DNA from: Nitrosopumilus sp. Nsub
GTDB lineage: Archaea > Thermoproteota > Nitrososphaeria > Nitrososphaerales > Nitrosopumilaceae
Direction of reading: 5' to 3'
DNA: 64,000 nucleotides
Assembly (NCBI RefSeq): GCF_001541925.1
Contig: NZ_LQMW01000008.1
Coordinates: 1 to 64,000 of the forward strand
The translations under genes were made by a program, and so were the position numbers. How positions within the stretch are numbered: the first letter of the stretch is position 1; each line of letters starts with the position of its first letter. This document shows positions 1 to 61,403 of this stretch, piece by piece. The notes below the pieces were generated by a model. It saw only the letters and a list, made by a program, of their open reading frames with translations, was not told the DNA's origin and did no database searches.

Positions 1-877
1 TATGTATTTTACATAGAGCGCTTGTACTAGCTGCTGGATTTTCGGTTTATGAATATCATTATCTATGGTTTTAATTACATTCCATTGTAGTAGTGTGGTT
101 GTCATGACCGAGCACCCTTAATTCCTTATTTTGCCCTTGTTGTAATCGCTACATGTATGTGGGTGTCTGTATTGCAAGTTGTATCAACCCCTTACTTAAT
201 GGTGGTTGACTAGGACTGATTGTAGCACTGTTTTCATACTCTGTAACCTTCAAGTAATGCAGGTGTTAAGTCTCTATTCCTTTAATATTTATCGACTATG
301 TAGGTTCATAATATTATTGGCAATACTTGTGTATTATGTGAAGTTGTTTTTAATTCCGTGATACAATGCTTGCTTACATAAAGTTTATAATGACACAAAC
401 AGGGTTAGAAAATTCAAAACAGAACATCGATCTTTAAATAATATATGTGGTTTTTGTGGTGATCCATTGGTATACTCCCTGATCGTATTAGTGGTGTCTA
501 GTGCCTTGATACCACAATGTCATACTCATCAAAAAGCCAGGTGTGCATATCCAGATTGCCTTGTTTAGTGTATTCATAGTTCATAGAATGCTTAGTTATT
601 GTTCAGGACAGTTTGATCATTCTGTTTTATTGTGTAACCATTACAGAGTTTGTACATATTATAATATTATGTGAAGTTACAATACAGCTAGTGTACAGAA
701 CTACAATACTTACATAACAACACAAGTACTTTACCACACACATTCGTTGTTAGCCAGAAAATGACAGTCACCTGGTAGGTGTCAAAGCAGTAATGATATC
801 AGAGGCATACCTGTTAATTAATATGGAGTTAATAAAATATTCTCTCTGTTATGTAACTGTTTGTTGTTCACTCATGT
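1..877. other. Non-coding animal DNA, no gene recognised
   Basis: No open frame longer than a few dozen codons and no recognisable exon is visible on either strand. The stretch is AT-rich with scattered stop codons, like the introns and spacers further along. It lies 3' of the minus-strand TRAF-like gene and could hold its 3' UTR. Missing upstream exons of the plus-strand URB1 gene are not seen here and presumably lie outside the window. Confidence 0.6.
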
Positions 878-2127
878 CTAGACTGTACTCTCCAACCACG
901 GTTTGTAGTCTGGTATTTCAACAGAAACTCTGAAGACTAGAGTGTTGTCTTTGAGATGCTGACGGTTAATGCTAGGCTGGTGACCAAGTTGTGTGTGATG
1001 TATAAAGTTTGAAAACCCCCATCCTGTGTTTCTAATTCCTGCCGCCGCTTCTCTGCGTGTTGAATAATCTAGGATCACTTTTCTATGGTTTCTGTCTTCC
1101 AGTTGGTTAAGTAACTCCACAGTAACTGACCCTCTGAATGGCCAGGTGAGGGAGTCATCGTTTCTCCCCTTCTGTAGATACACAAAGACAGAGATGTTGG
1201 TGTCATTGTCATCATCATGAGCATCATCTTCACCGGCAGCGTCAACTCTGATATTGAACCTGTAACCAGTTTGGCTCGAGTAAAATGGTGGGCTAAAAAA
1301 AGTTTTTTTCTGCTCTTTGTGTTCGTTAAACCGTTTGAATTTGAAGACAGTAGGTGAGTTGGGTTTCCTAGCTATTTTTGTCAGCTCAAGTACTTTCTCT
1401 TTCGTGATCTGAAGATGTAGCTGGTCATCTTCCTCGCGAGCCTTCATATCTTTCCTGATCACTCTCATTTCACACCCAAACTCAGTGAACTTGCATTGGA
1501 CTTGTTGATATCCACAGACAGAGCGATGAGCAGCAACATCACAACGAAGAATTTTGTCTTTGCACTCAGCGTTTGGACATTGGACCTCGACCTTTAGGCA
1601 GTTGTCAAGGTGATTGGTTGTTCGTTCTTGGTATCGACCAATCTCGTCGCAGTGTGGACATTTGTACTGGCGTCTTGGACACTCCGTTATGTGACTGTCA
1701 AAATTTTTGCGCAAGAGTTTCTTTATCTCACACTCGTTAGGGCAGGGAACAATAATTGATATAACTCAGTTCGCCCACCCACTCACAGCCATTGATGAGG
1801 CTCTCACACCTAACCTTCAGGGCATTTACCTCTTGTGCACCTGTATATAATGTATTGTTTAATATAATTATACACTGTTCAAGATGAATAGTAACGAAAC
1901 TTACTTTTGCGATCACTGAAGGTTTTCAGGTCCTGTCTACAGTGAGGACATTCACGGCTTGTCTTTCTGTGTTCAGTGATACAACTCAAACAGAACAGCT
2001 TCCCACATTCAGTATGCTGTTGAGGTTGCTTGACAACGGAGAGGCAGATTAGACAATTGAGACTATCTGGGGGCTCCTCCACAAATTTGTATTCATACCC
2101 CCCTCTAGTCTCTGTATTAGTAGCCAT
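878..2127 (-). pseudogene. TRAF-like RING / TRAF zinc finger / MATH protein, frame interrupted
   Basis: Exon 1 (2127-1905) begins with ATG and encodes a RING finger (CLICL, then CGKLFCLSC, then CPHC). It ends at a GTAAGT donor. Exon 2 starts at 1840 after TATATACAG and continues in phase into a TRAF-type start (VRCESLINGCEWVGEL). The frame then hits TAA near 1735. Two bases out of register, the protein resumes as CPNECEIKK, followed by TRAF zinc fingers and a C-terminal MATH domain (KFKRFNEH to VSVEIP) ending at a stop at 878. About ten residues expected between GEL and CPNEC are missing. TRAF proteins are receptor-proximal ubiquitin ligases or adaptors, and large TRAF-like families are known in sponges. 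The break could be a pseudogene lesion, a sequencing or assembly deletion, or a missed splice. The family call is firm; functionality is uncertain. Confidence 0.75.
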
Positions 2128-2407
2128 AATAATATTATGGTAGCTAGCTCTTAGTGATCTACTCTTGTTTTTGTTGTAGTCACCTCTTTATAAATATTAT
2201 GCTGTTTACTGAGAATGATCAGGTTAGGAGGTGTGTCTTGTTTATAATAATAATATTCATAGCCTGGAATATTGGTTACTCAGAATTCAGTGTAGGGTTA
2301 TGTGAGGTGATTATTCATGAAGTACATGTCCCACACATGTTGATTATGAATATTATTAGTATATCTTTGTAACTTAATCCATGATTACTCTCTGCTGTAA
2401 ATTGCAG

Positions 2408-12700
<10,293 letters not shown>

Positions 12701-12777
12701 TTGCTTTGTACTATAACTACATATACATGATTACATTATTATACTTTTCAAGATTTTGATGGTTCAGTTGTTTCATG

Positions 12778-13293
12778 TTAAAACTCGGAACCTTTTCTTG
12801 TTTTATCTCGGCTACATGTATATATGAAAAGTCTAGTCATACATATCAATACGAAGTGCATTATTATTATACACAAGTGTAGAGATCTATGGACCAAATG
12901 AAATGGTGTTGTATGGAGCATGACAGATCCCCCCATCCACTGAACGCTTACAGCACCTCCATTAGGTAGACTGTCCCACATCGGATATTGAGCTGAAGAC
13001 GTATAAGTACCCAGACCACACCAGTACAAAACAACACACCCTCTCATGGAGGGCAGTCATAATGACCAGTGCAACCTGGGTGCCCCAAGAGGACCTGTCA
13101 CCTGCCACTGAGCACCAGATACTGGTGATAGCGTGGCCGCTGTGGTAACAAGCCTCTAGGAGCGGGTTTCTGTCAGTGAACAGTAGGCATACGCCAGGCT
13201 GCACGCTGGACGAAGGAAGCGAAGTAAGCGTCAGTGTGTGGGGGGACCTTGCACAACTGCACACGACACCATCTCTCTTGGCTCCATGGAGTT
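12778..13293 (-). other. Possible exon(s) of an unidentified minus-strand gene
   Basis: Between URB1 and CYBC1 the minus strand has overlapping open frames (13264-12962 and 13047-12778) with less biased composition than the surrounding intronic DNA. An ATG at about 13294 (MEPREMVSCAVVQ) could be followed by a very short 42-base GT..AG intron. No domain is recognised. The two frames would need another splice or a frameshift to form one protein. It could equally be a 5' UTR or non-coding RNA. Confidence 0.25.
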
Positions 13294-13591
13294 GTGAGAG
13301 AAAGCGCCGGAGACTCGAATGTTGGAACAGATGAGACTGAACTTTCTTACCAAGTCCGCGGTTTTTATAGAGTTCTCAATAATTGTTCTATTTTTAGTCA
13401 CAATGACCTAATGTTTACGTCAGGATGACCACAGCATTATTGTGCGTATGTGCAGGTCAGCAGAAATGCACTAAATGTACATGTATATTGTGTTAGAGTA
13501 GATCTAGTTTATTGAAAATGATGGTACTAACCGTTTTTGATAAACAATCAGCAGTGACTATAATAATTTATACATGTGAAAATAATACAGA

Positions 13592-15087
<1,496 letters not shown>

Positions 15088-15252
15088 CGCTCCAGTGTCA
15101 AGGTTTGCTGTTTGGTAAAGGTCGTCAGAGCCTAAGCTCGTGGAATACAATAATTCTTTTATTTTTTTACTGTATCGATTAATACCATATGTGAAGCGCA
15201 TGTTATATTAGGTGCAGCAATAAATATAATACAATTCATGTACATGTTGATA

Positions 15253-17617
15253 CTAGCTCATTGAAATAGGTAGTTCCTTTTCTTCCCTAATTTCAGTTTG
15301 TTCAGTCTTGTTAGTTCGGACTAGTAAATGTGATCCATTATCCGTACAGCTGTCTTTGTGCTTGTCCATGTGACGACTAGTGAACCTATGTCCTGTATAA
15401 TAGCAACAACAAATGATGTAATAGTTTAGAAGTCACATACGGGGTACCCAGGGCTGCACTTCGGGGAAAGGTGGGTAGGGCCGGGACAAAAGTTACCCTC
15501 TTGATGACCTCTCATCCCCTGACAATATAGAATGTTTTTGATCCACTTGGAAGTTTGTGTGTACAGCAATGGTTCCCTTCATTAACGAAACCAATTTCGT
15601 AGATGATATCAAGTGATAAACATTTTCTGTGGTGATTGTAATTAAGCCTATAAGTACACATGTACAATGAATCACAATCATACCTGCGCAGTCCAATCTT
15701 TCTGTTCTACACTTCACTCTGCAGCATACTTTACACATAGCATGAACGCACTTCATACCCTGCAAGAATACAAATAACAACGACAATAATAACAACAATA
15801 ATAACAACAACAACAACAATCACTAGTAATGCTTGCTCTTATGAACAAGGAGAGAAAGGGTTTACCTTTGGGTTGGCTTTGCATGCAGCACATGTGATCC
15901 ATTGCCTCTCTGTGTTAATGCATACAAGAGGAACAACAGGCTAGGTGCAATAACTCTATAATATAATTCATGTTACGGTGACTAGGACACCCAGTGCTTC
16001 TGACATAGGCGCACAAATGATAATAATTGGCCAGAGCAACAAGCTTGATTTCCAAGGAAAGAGGTACATAGAAAAGAACTAAGGCAGATGGTCAGCCTTC
16101 AAAGAATTTTGGCCATGCTCATATTGTATCACATCAAACTGTATGTACAGCAAAAGGCAGGCGGATAGTACTTGGATCTTTGTAAGATATGGTGATTAAA
16201 TGCTTTGGCGTACTTTTTGGCAGGCTTACAACAGTCTCTTCTTTTATTGCCTTTTTTAAATCTTCTCCTTTTTGTTTCTGTCTCTTAGCAACCAGATCAG
16301 CCAGCTCAGCAGAATCCACACTATCCTCTGTATCAGATGCGACCCTTGACCTCTTGTGACTACCTGGTGGTGTCTCCTTGACCTGAGTAGAGCTGATAAG
16401 AACAACAAAGGTTAGTTGGACACAAATCACTTAAATTGGTACTAATGCCGGTACTGGACAGGCAATGCTTATACATGTACCAGTGCATGGATATAGTGTC
16501 ACATGCAATAACGGGGATTGGTCTCATAACACTAGTCTTCACTTGATAGTGTAGAGAACCAGAGCACAGGGGAGCATTAATTAACTCCACCCCTTGCCTC
16601 CCTCCCTCCTGCGTGAAACCTTCTTGCCTCAATACATTCTAAAATGATAGTGTACCTTGGTCTCACGTAAGGCTGGCATCTCCAGAATGGTATACTGTCT
16701 AATGAGAACTCTGCTGTTAGTTCATCGGGAGACAATCTAGTCTATATAACGTGACAGTCACAAACAGAGGTGAACAATGAAGAACAAACATAACAAAGGA
16801 TGGACAAAGATGAACCAAGATAGACAATAATGGACATACATTGACACAGATGGACAATACAATTGACAAAATGTAAAATGTTATCAATCATTCACTTCTC
16901 CATCCACCCACCCACCCACACACCCACACACACACACTCCACAATCATTCACCTCTCCACCCCCCACTCCACTAACTCTATGACTAACTTACCAACAGCA
17001 ATGATTTGAGTTCTGCTGTGAGTCGAACCATCGTATCCATAGACCTAGCTACACCAAATTGCTCTCTGTAGCACTGATACTCTGGTTGTTTGAGACTGGA
17101 TGAACATATAATTGTCAGTTCTAATAGACAAAATATTTGTACACACACACACATTAGGAATGGAATATACGTATAGCAAAGTTTTTCACGGGATCCAAAT
17201 TTCGCAATCTCTTTCACGGAATCTAATTTCACAATTGGCTGGCAACTATACAATATCTTCCTATCGTTCCTTTTTCGTGAAATTTGTGAAATATTAACTC
17301 CGTATTGTACAGTAGTAGAAATGTTACATGTTGGATTGAACTCTGTACCTTCACTATGAGTATGTCCCTGTTAACTAGCTGTACCTTCATTATGAGCATG
17401 ACCCTATTAATTAGCTGTACCTTCATTATGAGTATGACCCTGTTAATTAGCTGTACCTTCATTATGAGTATGACCCTGTTAATTAGCTGTAGGTCATTCA
17501 CAACACATGTCTAGACTTACACATGGAACCAAATCTTAAAGAGATGACCTCTGATGTAAGAGAGAGGGCAAGGGTAAGATTTGACTAGCTCCAGATACTC
17601 TTCACTCACTCTCCAAC
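15253..17617 (-). CDS. DUS1L: DUS1L tRNA-dihydrouridine synthase, C-terminal part, cut at the chimeric seam
   Basis: Seven exons join in phase: about 17617-17521, 17095-16993, 16741-16656, 16392 to about 16180, 15909-15866, 15759-15684 and 15392-15253 (TAG). The protein begins at the seam with [15 protein letters not shown], then [11 protein letters not shown] and [12 protein letters not shown], which match the region after the TIM barrel of DUS1L. A Lys/Glu-rich linker is followed by the DUS1L-type cysteine cluster ([25 protein letters not shown]). DUS1 enzymes use FMN and NADPH to reduce U16/U17 in the tRNA D loop. The whole N-terminal FMN-binding barrel is absent because the sequence switches to archaeal DNA at about 17,615. 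This is truncation by joining, not a natural short gene. Tail-to-tail distance to the CYBC1 start is about 165 bases. Confidence 0.85.
17345..17488. repeat. Four 36 bp tandem units in a DUS1L intron
   Basis: Four consecutive units begin GTACCTTCAYTATGAGTATG and end in a variant of TTAATTAGCT. The first copy is the most diverged (ACTAGCT). The array lies in the intron between the two 5'-most DUS1L exons seen here. Confidence 0.9.
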
Positions 17618-17618
17618 A
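17611..17618. other. Animal/archaeal chimeric junction
   Basis: On the minus strand the archaeal glutamine synthetase reads RYYVG and should continue GGI. Instead, after GTTGGA, the next bases are GAGTGAGTGAAGAG, which in another frame encode [11 protein letters not shown] of the sponge-like DUS1L. The shared TTGGA could be a short microhomology. Left of the seam genes have introns and satellites; right of it they are compact and AT-rich. No transposon, integrase or attachment-site repeat is visible at the seam. Confidence 0.9.
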
Positions 17619-18541
17619 TAATATCTGCCAGTTTGACTCATTTGAGCAACGTCGTCGTCATGATCATACATGACATTAGTATTATCTTTCCATAAACTTT
17701 GGTGAGTGTGCATAGCTGATGCATTATCACCAAAAATCGGTTTTGGCATAAAAGTTGCTACTTTATTTTTTCTTTTAGCTTTGACTTTAACTAAATTTTT
17801 TACTGCAATAACATTATCTGCCATTCCAATCATTTCATCATAAACTAAATTAATTTCACATTGACCTGAAGTAGCAACTTCATGATGCTCAGCTTCAATT
17901 TTTATTCCAAAATAATTATACAAATCATCACATACATCTTTTCTAAATCCTTCAAGTGTATCTTTTGGTTGTGATGGGTAATATCCTTCTTTGATATCAA
18001 TTGCTGTACTAACATTACCTTTTGCCCATGGTGATTCTTTAGATTCAATTGAATAACCTGAACCACCACCTGAATGAGTTGCAGCATATGGTGAAGGGTA
18101 AACACTAATTGAATCAAAAACAAAGAATTCTATTTCAGGACCCCAATTTGTATGAGTAAATCCAAATTCTTCAAGTTTCTGAGATGCTTTATGTGCGATT
18201 CCTCTAGAATCTCTATTGTAGCGTGATTCCTTATTTGTACTACCATCATATAGATCACAAAATATTCTTGCATTTTTTCTATGTCCAGGATCATAATCAC
18301 TTGGTAAAATTTTGAATGAATTTGGATCAGGCATTAAAATCATGTCAGAACTATTTACAGATTTAAATCCAACAATTGAACTAGCATCAAGTTTTTCAAG
18401 GCCATTTACAAAACTATTTTCGTCAATTGCATAACTTGGCATCCCAACATTATGGAGTTCACCAAAAATATCAACAAACCAAAAATCAATAAAAGATATT
18501 TTTTCATCCTCAATAATTTGTAGAACTTGTTTAGAATCCAA
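17613..18541 (-). pseudogene. glnA: Glutamine synthetase, archaeal, C-terminus missing at the seam
   Basis: The frame covers the N-terminal 310 or so residues of a type I glutamine synthetase: the beta-grasp domain (SIVGFKSVN), WGPEIEFFVFD, the metal-binding HHEVATSGQCEIN and the HTHQSLW segment. It stops after RYYVG at the junction, so about 160 residues are lost, including the ATP-binding and Arg-containing loops. The enzyme makes glutamine from glutamate, ammonia and ATP. A complete paralogue lies at 32266-33696, and two paralogues fit nitrifying archaea. The gene is probably intact in the true symbiont chromosome. Start ATG at 18541. Confidence 0.9.
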
Positions 18542-28728: not shown

Positions 28729-28729
28729 T

Positions 28730-28802
28730 GGGATCGGCAGGATTTGAACCTGCAACCACTAGCCCCCCAGGCTAGTATCATACCAAGTTAGACTACGATC
28801 CC
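28730..28802 (-). tRNA. tRNA-Pro, anticodon GGG
   Basis: The minus strand folds into a cloverleaf. The seven-pair acceptor is GGGATCG/CGATCCC and the D arm contains TTGGTA. The anticodon stem CTAGC/GCTAG encloses the loop CTGGGGG, giving anticodon GGG. The T arm is GCAGG/CCTGC with loop TTCAAAT. Length is 73 bases, with no intron and no encoded CCA. It lies two bases after the kinase stop in convergent orientation. Confidence 0.95.
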
Positions 28803-59947: not shown

Positions 59948-60691
59948 TTATTTAATTGATTCTCCACCATCAACTGTCAGTACTGCTCCAGTTACCCAAG
60001 ATGCATCATTTGATGTAAAATATAATGCAGCTTTTCCAATTTCTTCAGGTTGACCAATTCTTCCTAATGGATGTTCATTATTCATAAATTCTACATCTTT
60101 TTGATTTTTTAAAAATGGTTTTGTCATATCTGTATCTACTACTCCTGGACAAATACAATTAACTCTAATTTTGTCTTTAGCATATTCTAATGCCCAACAT
60201 TTTGTAAGTACAATTAAAGCGGCTTTTGTCGCAGAATATGCATCTGCATTAAATCCTTGATATGCCTTTAATCCTGCATCAGATGAAATATTGATTATAC
60301 AACCTGATGTTTTTTGTAAATATGGAATTGCTTCTTTAGTAAATCTAAACTGTCCAGTTAAGTTAACATCTAATACATCATTCCATTCTTCTTCATCAAT
60401 TTTATGTAATTGTTTTATTTTTGGAAATATTCCTGCATTGTTTACTAAAATATCTAATTTGCCAAATTTTTTAATTGTTTGATTTACTACATTTTGAACT
60501 TGGCTCATTTTTTTAATGTCGCATGTTATTCCAAATGAGTTTGAAATTTTTGCTTCAGCTTCTTTTATTCTATCAGAATTTTTTGCTGTAATTACTACTG
60601 ATGCTCCATTTTCTGATAAAACTTTGGCAATCGCAAATCCAATTCCTCGACTTCCGCCCGTAACTAAAGCAACTTTACCATCTAATTTCAT
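59948..60691 (-). CDS. Short-chain dehydrogenase/reductase
   Basis: The 247-residue classical SDR shows TGGSRGIGFAIA, NNAGIFP, the Ser in ISSDAGLKA and the YxxxK in YSATKAA. LTVDGG near the end is typical of the FabG-like group. The substrate is unknown. It is the second SDR in the window and shares only family-level features with that at 30220. Start ATG 60691. Confidence 0.85.
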   Translation of the reverse strand: MKLDGKVALVTGGSRGIGFAIAKVLSENGASVVITAKNSDRIKEAEAKISNSFGITCDIKKMSQVQNVVNQTIKKFGKLDILVNNAGIFPKIKQLHKIDEEEWNDVLDVNLTGQFRFTKEAIPYLQKTSGCIINISSDAGLKAYQGFNADAYSATKAALIVLTKCWALEYAKDKIRVNCICPGVVDTDMTKPFLKNQKDVEFMNNEHPLGRIGQPEEIGKAALYFTSNDASWVTGAVLTVDGGESIK

Positions 60692-60856
60692 CAGTTTTAA
60701 AATCCAAATTCGTAATTTATAGATCGATTTATTGAAAAATTATTAAAATAATTTGAATAAATTCATTATAATTAGAAATTATTTTTAAAAAATGTTAAAT
60801 ATTAAAATTTTCTATAGTAATTAATGTCGAAAGTTGTTATTTCTATCGACTAACTT

Positions 60857-60950
60857 GCGTAACCCCGCAGAACGAAAAAGGCACTCAGGCGTTTAGACGC
60901 TTGACCACAAGAGGAAATCTCTAAGTGTTCTGCAGTTATGGGGTTTACGC
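60857..60950. ncRNA. Candidate structured RNA with long closing stem and internal hairpins
   Basis: GCGTAACCCCGCAGAAC at 60857-60873 pairs with GTTCTGC at 60927-60933 and GGGGTTTACGC at 60940-60950. The closing stem has about 17 pairs and one bulge. Inside lie an 8-pair hairpin, TCAGGCGT/ACGCTTGA with loop TTAG, and a smaller AGAG/CTCT hairpin. It is the most GC-rich short stretch in an AT-rich spacer of about 250 bases. It ends at the stop codon of a minus-strand gene, so a terminator role is an alternative. Direction cannot be fixed; no known archaeal RNA family is recognised. Confidence 0.5.
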
Positions 60951-61403
60951 CTCTATCTTGATCAAATCTACTGATACTGAACCATTTACGTTCCCATTTG
61001 GATCAATATGGATTGAAATTTCCTCTGATGAATCAATCACAATTTTTTCATTTCCATTATATTCCCATGTGAAATATTTTGTAGTTTCAGATTCATGTGG
61101 AATACCTATGAGCTTAAAATTTTCCCTCATCTCAAAATTTTGACCAATTAATTTTATTGATAAAATTTCAGGACTACTGCCATTAGGCACAAATCTAAAA
61201 AAATATGTTCCTGATTCAATCAAAAATTTATCAGTATAAACACCATTAGTGTATAGTCCAGGCTCTGCTAAAGTAATATGAAATACAATTTCATCAGAAT
61301 TTACTTTTTCATCTGATAAACCTGTTATCCAACCAAATCCAATAAATGCAATAATCGGTATTATCAACAAAATCACAATTTTTTTATCCATAAACAAAAT
61401 CAC
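60945..61403 (-). CDS. Membrane-anchored beta-rich protein of unknown function
   Basis: The 152-residue protein has an N-terminal helix (IVILLIIPIIAFIGFGWI) followed by a strand-rich domain that ends in IHIDPNGNVNGSVSVDLIKI. It is likely held at the outer face of the membrane. No family is recognised; similar short anchored proteins are typical of these archaea. Its stop codon lies within the closing stem of the structured element. Confidence 0.6.
   Translation of the reverse strand: MILFMDKKIVILLIIPIIAFIGFGWITGLSDEKVNSDEIVFHITLAEPGLYTNGVYTDKFLIESGTYFFRFVPNGSSPEILSIKLIGQNFEMRENFKLIGIPHESETTKYFTWEYNGNEKIVIDSSEEISIHIDPNGNVNGSVSVDLIKIEA

Follow-up and report, generated by a model that had tools for sequence, protein, structure and literature searches.

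In bacterial leader-peptide attenuators of the trpL and ermC type, translation of a short ORF decides whether a stem forms at or after its stop codon, with a U-rich tract lying behind. Among archaeal RNAs, Methanosarcina mazei sRNA154 is a dual-function sRNA that carries a leaderless small ORF, sORF_154, of 20 aa (PMC11456600). The ribosome-associated sRNAs of Haloferax volcanii carry ribosomes, most of them without coding potential (PMC12482152). Thalassoarchaea ncRNA 1 (Tan1), a 229-nt RNA from the Euryarchaeota, is an abundant structured RNA of a planktonic marine archaeon, and the accessible part of its description gives it no ORF, unlike the unit described below (PMC5069720).

The stretch of DNA analysed here, referred to as the window, comprises 64,000 nt from Nitrosopumilus sp. 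Nsub and contains a conserved unit at ~60795–60961 (+). By test, this unit is a member of none of the dual-function sRNAs, the leader-peptide attenuators or the H. volcanii ribosome-associated sRNAs. With the trpL and ermC attenuators it shares a short ORF, a stem near the stop of that ORF and a U-rich tract; in contrast to them, it is stand-alone at the loci examined, without a regulated gene in cis, it is predicted to be leaderless rather than Shine–Dalgarno led, and it lacks run-of-codon sensing. Like sRNA154, it is a small archaeal RNA that has its own putative promoter, carries a small ORF predicted to be leaderless and presumably functions as RNA (PMC11456600). Compared by description only, it differs from sRNA154 in lineage, in an ORF of nine codons whose length and position are kept without the peptide, and in a deeply conserved two-part stem that stands 3–4 nt after the stop. 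With the H. volcanii sRNAs it has in common that it is an archaeal small RNA for which an association with ribosomes is predicted, whereas its conserved fixed ORF frame sets it apart from them and no shared sequence or structure is known.

The initial annotation of this DNA had described a branched RNA-like structure at 60857–60950, between two minus-strand genes, in which a long stem closes two hairpins. Both the fold, with P1+P2 as the stem, and the location are as it described (Table 1). Its coordinates hold for the structure, but the extent was drawn too short, since 60857–60950 is only the 3′ part of a unit that begins with a promoter at 60795 and an ORF at 60824 and ends at ~60961. In order, the unit consists of a TATA box, a nine-codon ORF, 3 nt, the P1–P4 structure and a U-rich tail. 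The ORF, which fills the first 30 nt of the predicted transcript, was missed at first reading. The P1 pairing (60857–60866 with 60940–60950) includes one bulged U, and the 3′ strand of P1 shares nucleotides with the convergent gene's stop codon. The tail of the window copy is merely pyrimidine-rich; across 137 distinct tails, T makes up 62% of the first 12 nt, and TTTT occurs in 73%.

Table 1. Parts of the conserved unit and the genes flanking it, in window coordinates
Feature	Position	Strand	Evidence
SDR-family gene, other flank of locus I	59948–60691	−	Locus I synteny
Putative archaeal promoter: A-rich BRE-like stretch and TATA box TTAAATA (60795–60801)	60788–60801	+	TATA spacing to ATG
Nine-codon ORF, ATG TCG AAA GTT GTT ATT TCT ATC GAC TAA (MSKVVISID*)	60824–60853	+	Length kept in copies
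Weak 5′ hairpin within the ORF, GTCGA / TCGAC; genus level only	60826–60850	+	Compensatory changes in genus
P1, 5′ strand GCGTAACCCC	60857–60866	+	97% of cells paired; both-side changes in 6/9 pairs (A5, 57 sequences)
P2, 5′ strand GCAGAAC	60867–60873	+	94% of cells paired; both-side changes in 7/7 pairs (A5, 57 sequences)
P3, variable inner hairpin	60880–60906	+	Predicted fold; covarying pairs at genus level
P4, conserved inner hairpin, family consensus GAGAGGNAAUCUCUC	60910–60922	+	93% of cells paired; both-side changes in 3/5 pairs (A5, 57 sequences)
P2, 3′ strand GTTCTGC	60927–60933	+	Family alignment
P1, 3′ strand GGGGTTTACGC	60940–60950	+	Fold and family alignment
Convergent neighbour gene, no Pfam family; outside the RNA, marks locus I	60945–61403	−	Same neighbour in distant genera
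Pyrimidine/U-rich tail, putative terminator, weak in the window copy	60951–60961	+	T content of tails

The segment 60857–60950 folds with a minimum free energy of −36.1 kcal/mol (z = −4.54), and 0/200 dinucleotide shuffles fold as well. At the level of the family, the structure was tested using a sequence-only alignment of 57 diverse copies, A5, from which the values for P1, P2 and P4 in Table 1 are taken. Changes on both sides of a pair occur in 22/28 pairs overall, 0/500 shuffles attain the observed values, and shifting the pairing partners abolishes the covariation signal. The pairing is indeed far beyond chance, as had been claimed from the letters of the window, because relatives maintain it by compensatory changes. 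Their absence from relatives had been set beforehand as a condition that would refute the small RNA idea; such changes were found, and the idea survived. In P1, P2 and P4 together, G–U combinations far outnumber A–C combinations (64 vs. 8), and the + strand RNA is therefore the product. Two further foldings were considered and rejected. The 5′ hairpin within the ORF shows compensatory changes inside the genus but fails as a conserved element at the family level, where only 60% of its cells are paired (57 sequences) and A–C is as common as G–U. An alternative fold, in which an A-rich GAAAAAGGC segment pairs with the GCCUUUUU tail, is plausible in the genus, but distant genera do not retain its partners.

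The structure had been called unassigned, and correctly so, as it is without an Rfam family. Neither the element nor ten loci from relatives match any family of Rfam 15, and the best hit at E up to 10 is a chance match with E = 5. The earlier judgement that it does not match tRNA, SRP RNA or RNase P RNA was borne out: a search for tRNA and tmRNA by ARAGORN finds only a tRNA-Pro at 28729–28802, and the genome's own SRP RNA and RNase P RNA lie elsewhere, at C1:133331–133642 and C4:17573–17852, respectively. Inspection of the aligned sequences by eye revealed no box C/D pair or ACA end of the kind that marks C/D or H/ACA guide RNAs, and the Rfam scans were negative. The PGAP annotation of N. zosterae NM25 lists only two noncoding RNA genes, which we take to be SRP RNA and RNase P RNA. 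A single "conserved noncoding RNA", 93% identical to N. maritimus and given no name, is noted in the genome paper of N. limnia (PMC3043068); it may likewise be SRP or RNase P RNA. Scans against Rfam and searches of open papers yielded neither a description of this RNA family nor any conserved regulatory RNA family of Nitrosopumilaceae. The RNA family thus appears to be undescribed as far as Rfam and searchable papers show; an earlier listing in a transcriptome table is possible.

The genome from which the window derives carries three copies of the unit, two of them 97% identical. BLAST finds the unit in 89/95 genomes of the genus, usually with two or three copies each, and reaches 9/22 genera of the family. 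A covariance model built from 46 genus-level and near copies (A1) detects it in 112/119 good family genomes and in 17/22 genera. A second covariance model, built from 74 diverse copies, was run on an order draw, where it detects the unit in 80/82 good genomes of the family and has no match in any other family; in the class draw, 160/171 family genomes (~94%) have a match, vs. 0/129 others. The copy number ranges from one to five per genome (three in genome G094 by the second model). Named matches include Nitrosopumilus salaria BD31 and several Nitrosarchaeum, and the family is therefore Nitrosopumilaceae. The family members without a match (genera g5, g11, g13 and g8) include small genomes of ~0.8 Mb, for which loss in reduced symbionts is possible. 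Records filed under Chitinophagaceae and Hyphomicrobiales look like archaeal contigs that were binned wrongly. A separate observation concerns the composition of the window itself. Positions 1–17700 have a GC content of ~0.38–0.42, vs. ~0.25–0.34 in the rest, and the interval 8.9–17.6 kb holds no ORF of at least 120 aa, together with AC dinucleotide microsatellites and minisatellites; positions 1–17700 look like eukaryotic DNA, perhaps a host's, joined to the archaeal contig by misassembly or misbinning.

The copies occupy fixed loci. At locus I, weak matches in distant genera that only a covariance model finds sit between homologues of the SDR gene and of the convergent gene, with inositol-phosphatase-like and Snf7-like genes nearby; this synteny independently supports the homology of the weak matches. 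At a second orthologous locus, the unit is convergent to a gene read as purP, and at a third it is flanked by aroC and aroA and occupies the strand opposite to theirs, all three names being ones we presume from reading the sequences. The third-locus copies L108 and L110, which L160 and L162 resemble, are a divergent paralogue, antisense to a gap of a likely shikimate-pathway operon. Within L001/L002 of the window's own genome and L009/L111 of G003, the structured parts of the paralogues are 95–99% identical, whereas the ORFs are locus-specific at 67–70% identity, a pattern which suggests gene conversion confined to the structured part. General gene conversion between loci I and II was rejected, being seen in the own clade only (two genomes) and not in seven other genomes. 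Decayed, AT-rich copies also exist, at L123 2436–2565 (G035), L155 407–547 (G040) and L161 454–584 (G005), in genomes that keep intact ones; the stems of L155 and L161 are degraded and their nine-codon ORFs intact, and in L123 both are broken. L184 402–537, from a genome that carries five copies (G204), has lost its stop at codon 10, and its frame extends 12 codons into P1.

The ATG at 60824 lies 29 nt after the first base of the TATA box and 26 nt from its centre, and in 123/149 copies the TATA box likewise starts 29 nt before the start codon. In the protein genes of these genomes (432 ORFs checked), the TATA box peaks 27–29 nt before the ATG, which is leaderless geometry, and the start codon of the unit ORF stands at this leaderless distance. 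The transcript is predicted to start at the start codon or within 1–2 nt of it. With a TATA box at a fixed distance in nearly all copies, and at several unrelated loci, the predicted transcript has the marks of an independent transcription unit.

The ORF has exactly nine sense codons in 138/149 distinct copies, eight in 7 and ten in 2; the remaining two copies (L123 and L184) are aberrant, one truncated and one without a stop. Among the same 149 copies, start codons are ATG (140), GTG (6) and TTG (3), and stop codons are TAA (88), TAG (35) and TGA (26). As the ORF search script favours nine codons, an unbiased test was anchored on the TATA box alone. Of 160 sequences, 87% have a start codon at +29 and 83% have a stop at +56, and these values are 75% and 70% for 53 representatives at 80% identity, with the other two frames closed or irregular. 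The distance to the stem is also constant: from stop to P1 there are 0–5 nt, usually 3–4, and from start codon to P1 30–35 nt, mostly 33–34, and in the two ten-codon ORFs the gap before P1 shrinks to 0.

The peptide behaves differently. The conservation counts take related sequences as independent, and the correction applied to the 94 distinct ORFs, a minimum spanning tree, follows phylogeny only roughly. Of the 97 changes on this tree, 15 are synonymous vs. 18.4 expected, so there is no sign of peptide constraint, and nonsense changes number 0 vs. 5.1 expected. TGG never stands in place of the stop, vs. ~6 occurrences expected from the column composition. The 94 ORFs specify 88 different peptides, and codon 5 changes freely. 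At the level of sequence, the ORF is thus shown to be kept for length, frame, start and stop, and not for its peptide, as would be expected of a small ORF selected to be translated; the synonymous excess of a conserved peptide is not seen. The 5′ hairpin is not kept in the family and so cannot explain the ORF. That length, frame, start and stop are kept and the sequence is not suggests that selection acts on translation itself or on where the ribosome stands.

The best reading of these data, to which we give roughly an even chance as a whole, is that the unit is a stand-alone small RNA gene with its own promoter and a predicted transcript of ~130–138 nt, i.e., an independent leaderless mini-mRNA or small RNA whose folding is gated by translation. 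Its own promoter would yield a transcript starting leaderless at the AUG of the nine-codon ORF, in which the two-part stem P1+P2 closes two hairpins ahead of a U-rich 3′ end. A 70S ribosome would load on the leaderless AUG, and P1 could stay closed during initiation. Once the ribosome stood at the stop codon, its leading edge would cover the 5′ strand of P1, and P1 would open, with P2 and the inner hairpins remaining. The RNA would thereby have two states, untranslated with P1 closed and translated with P1 open. The RNA would act through its state or through its complex with the ribosome, and its likeliest role would be to regulate in trans or to report translation capacity; any downstream target is a guess.

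Masked folding was used to model these steps, with a mask that assumes a bacterial-like ribosome footprint. Masking the 42 nt under a terminating ribosome is predicted to remove P1 in the sequences tried (10–14 kcal/mol in most) and mostly to spare P2 and the inner hairpins, and the mask for an initiating ribosome leaves the modelled P1 intact. The constant spacing and the masked folding are both consistent with an ORF placed so that the ribosome changes the downstream stem. No conserved alternative partner for the freed 3′ strand of P1 turned up, and the second state may therefore lack a separate fold. The ORF could also matter only for the stability of the leaderless 5′ end, without switching. 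As a bolder extension of translation-gated folding, which we offer tentatively and with more doubt than belief, the unit would represent a new class of stand-alone RNA switches read by the ribosome: the fixed-length leaderless ORF would act as a ruler that parks the terminating ribosome against the conserved stem, the fold would report translation activity in trans, and the peptide would be a waste product.

A plain structured small RNA, in which P1–P4 bind a protein or target RNAs and translation of the ORF is incidental or protects the 5′ end, is a real though unlikely alternative. It accords with the strong structural conservation across the family, with the unconserved peptide and with the many haloarchaeal sRNAs that carry ribosomes without coding potential (PMC12482152). 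However, a start, frame, nine-codon length and stop that are kept in 138/149 copies, by means of three kinds of stop, are unlike an incidental ORF. The ORF takes centre stage if the RNA is a dual-function small RNA or mini-mRNA with the nonapeptide as functional product, whether signal, membrane or regulatory peptide. The conserved ORF with its own promoter fits this proposal, as do the shared pattern M-x-x-D-x-x-[PS]-I-D of locus I peptides in many genera and the persistence of locus-specific ORFs where the structured parts of paralogues are nearly alike. Against it, synonymous changes show no excess over expectation, codon 5 varies freely and nearly every distinct ORF gives a different peptide, and we consider it rather improbable.

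Of the functions offered by the initial annotation, the small RNA has gained support, whereas a cis element or terminator no longer stands as the main reading. A short leader-like ORF with a stem and a U-rich tract behind it does resemble an attenuator, and at locus I the 3′ strand overlaps the convergent gene's stop codon; both would fit an element acting in cis, be it an attenuator or riboswitch for the gene downstream or the terminator of the minus-strand gene that converges on the unit. However, the unit has its own putative promoter and occurs at no fewer than three unrelated fixed loci, where the downstream neighbours vary and are mostly convergent rather than co-directional, and the bias of G–U over A–C marks pairing in the + strand; we thus regard a cis element as very unlikely. 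The presence of several copies per genome, and the near identity of two of them in the window's own genome, could recall a mobile, MITE-like repeat, an origin to which we assign next to no probability. The copies stand at fixed orthologous places across genera, complete with promoter and ORF, and are therefore fixed genes rather than a moving repeat. A viral origin was also rejected, as there is no genuine viral match: the single viral match, like one in Roseomonas, is a high-GC chance match of a short pattern.

Few cells in the ocean are as numerous as the ammonia-oxidising archaea of the Nitrosopumilaceae, and they drive nitrification. An RNA gene that ~94% of the tested family genomes carry, each with one to five copies at fixed loci, likely matters for their basic physiology. 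It is unusual for an ORF to stay fixed at nine codons while its peptide drifts, and this predicts that the act of translation counts, not its product. Should the unit indeed be such a ribosome-read switch, nearly all Nitrosopumilaceae would possess it as a multi-copy regulator.
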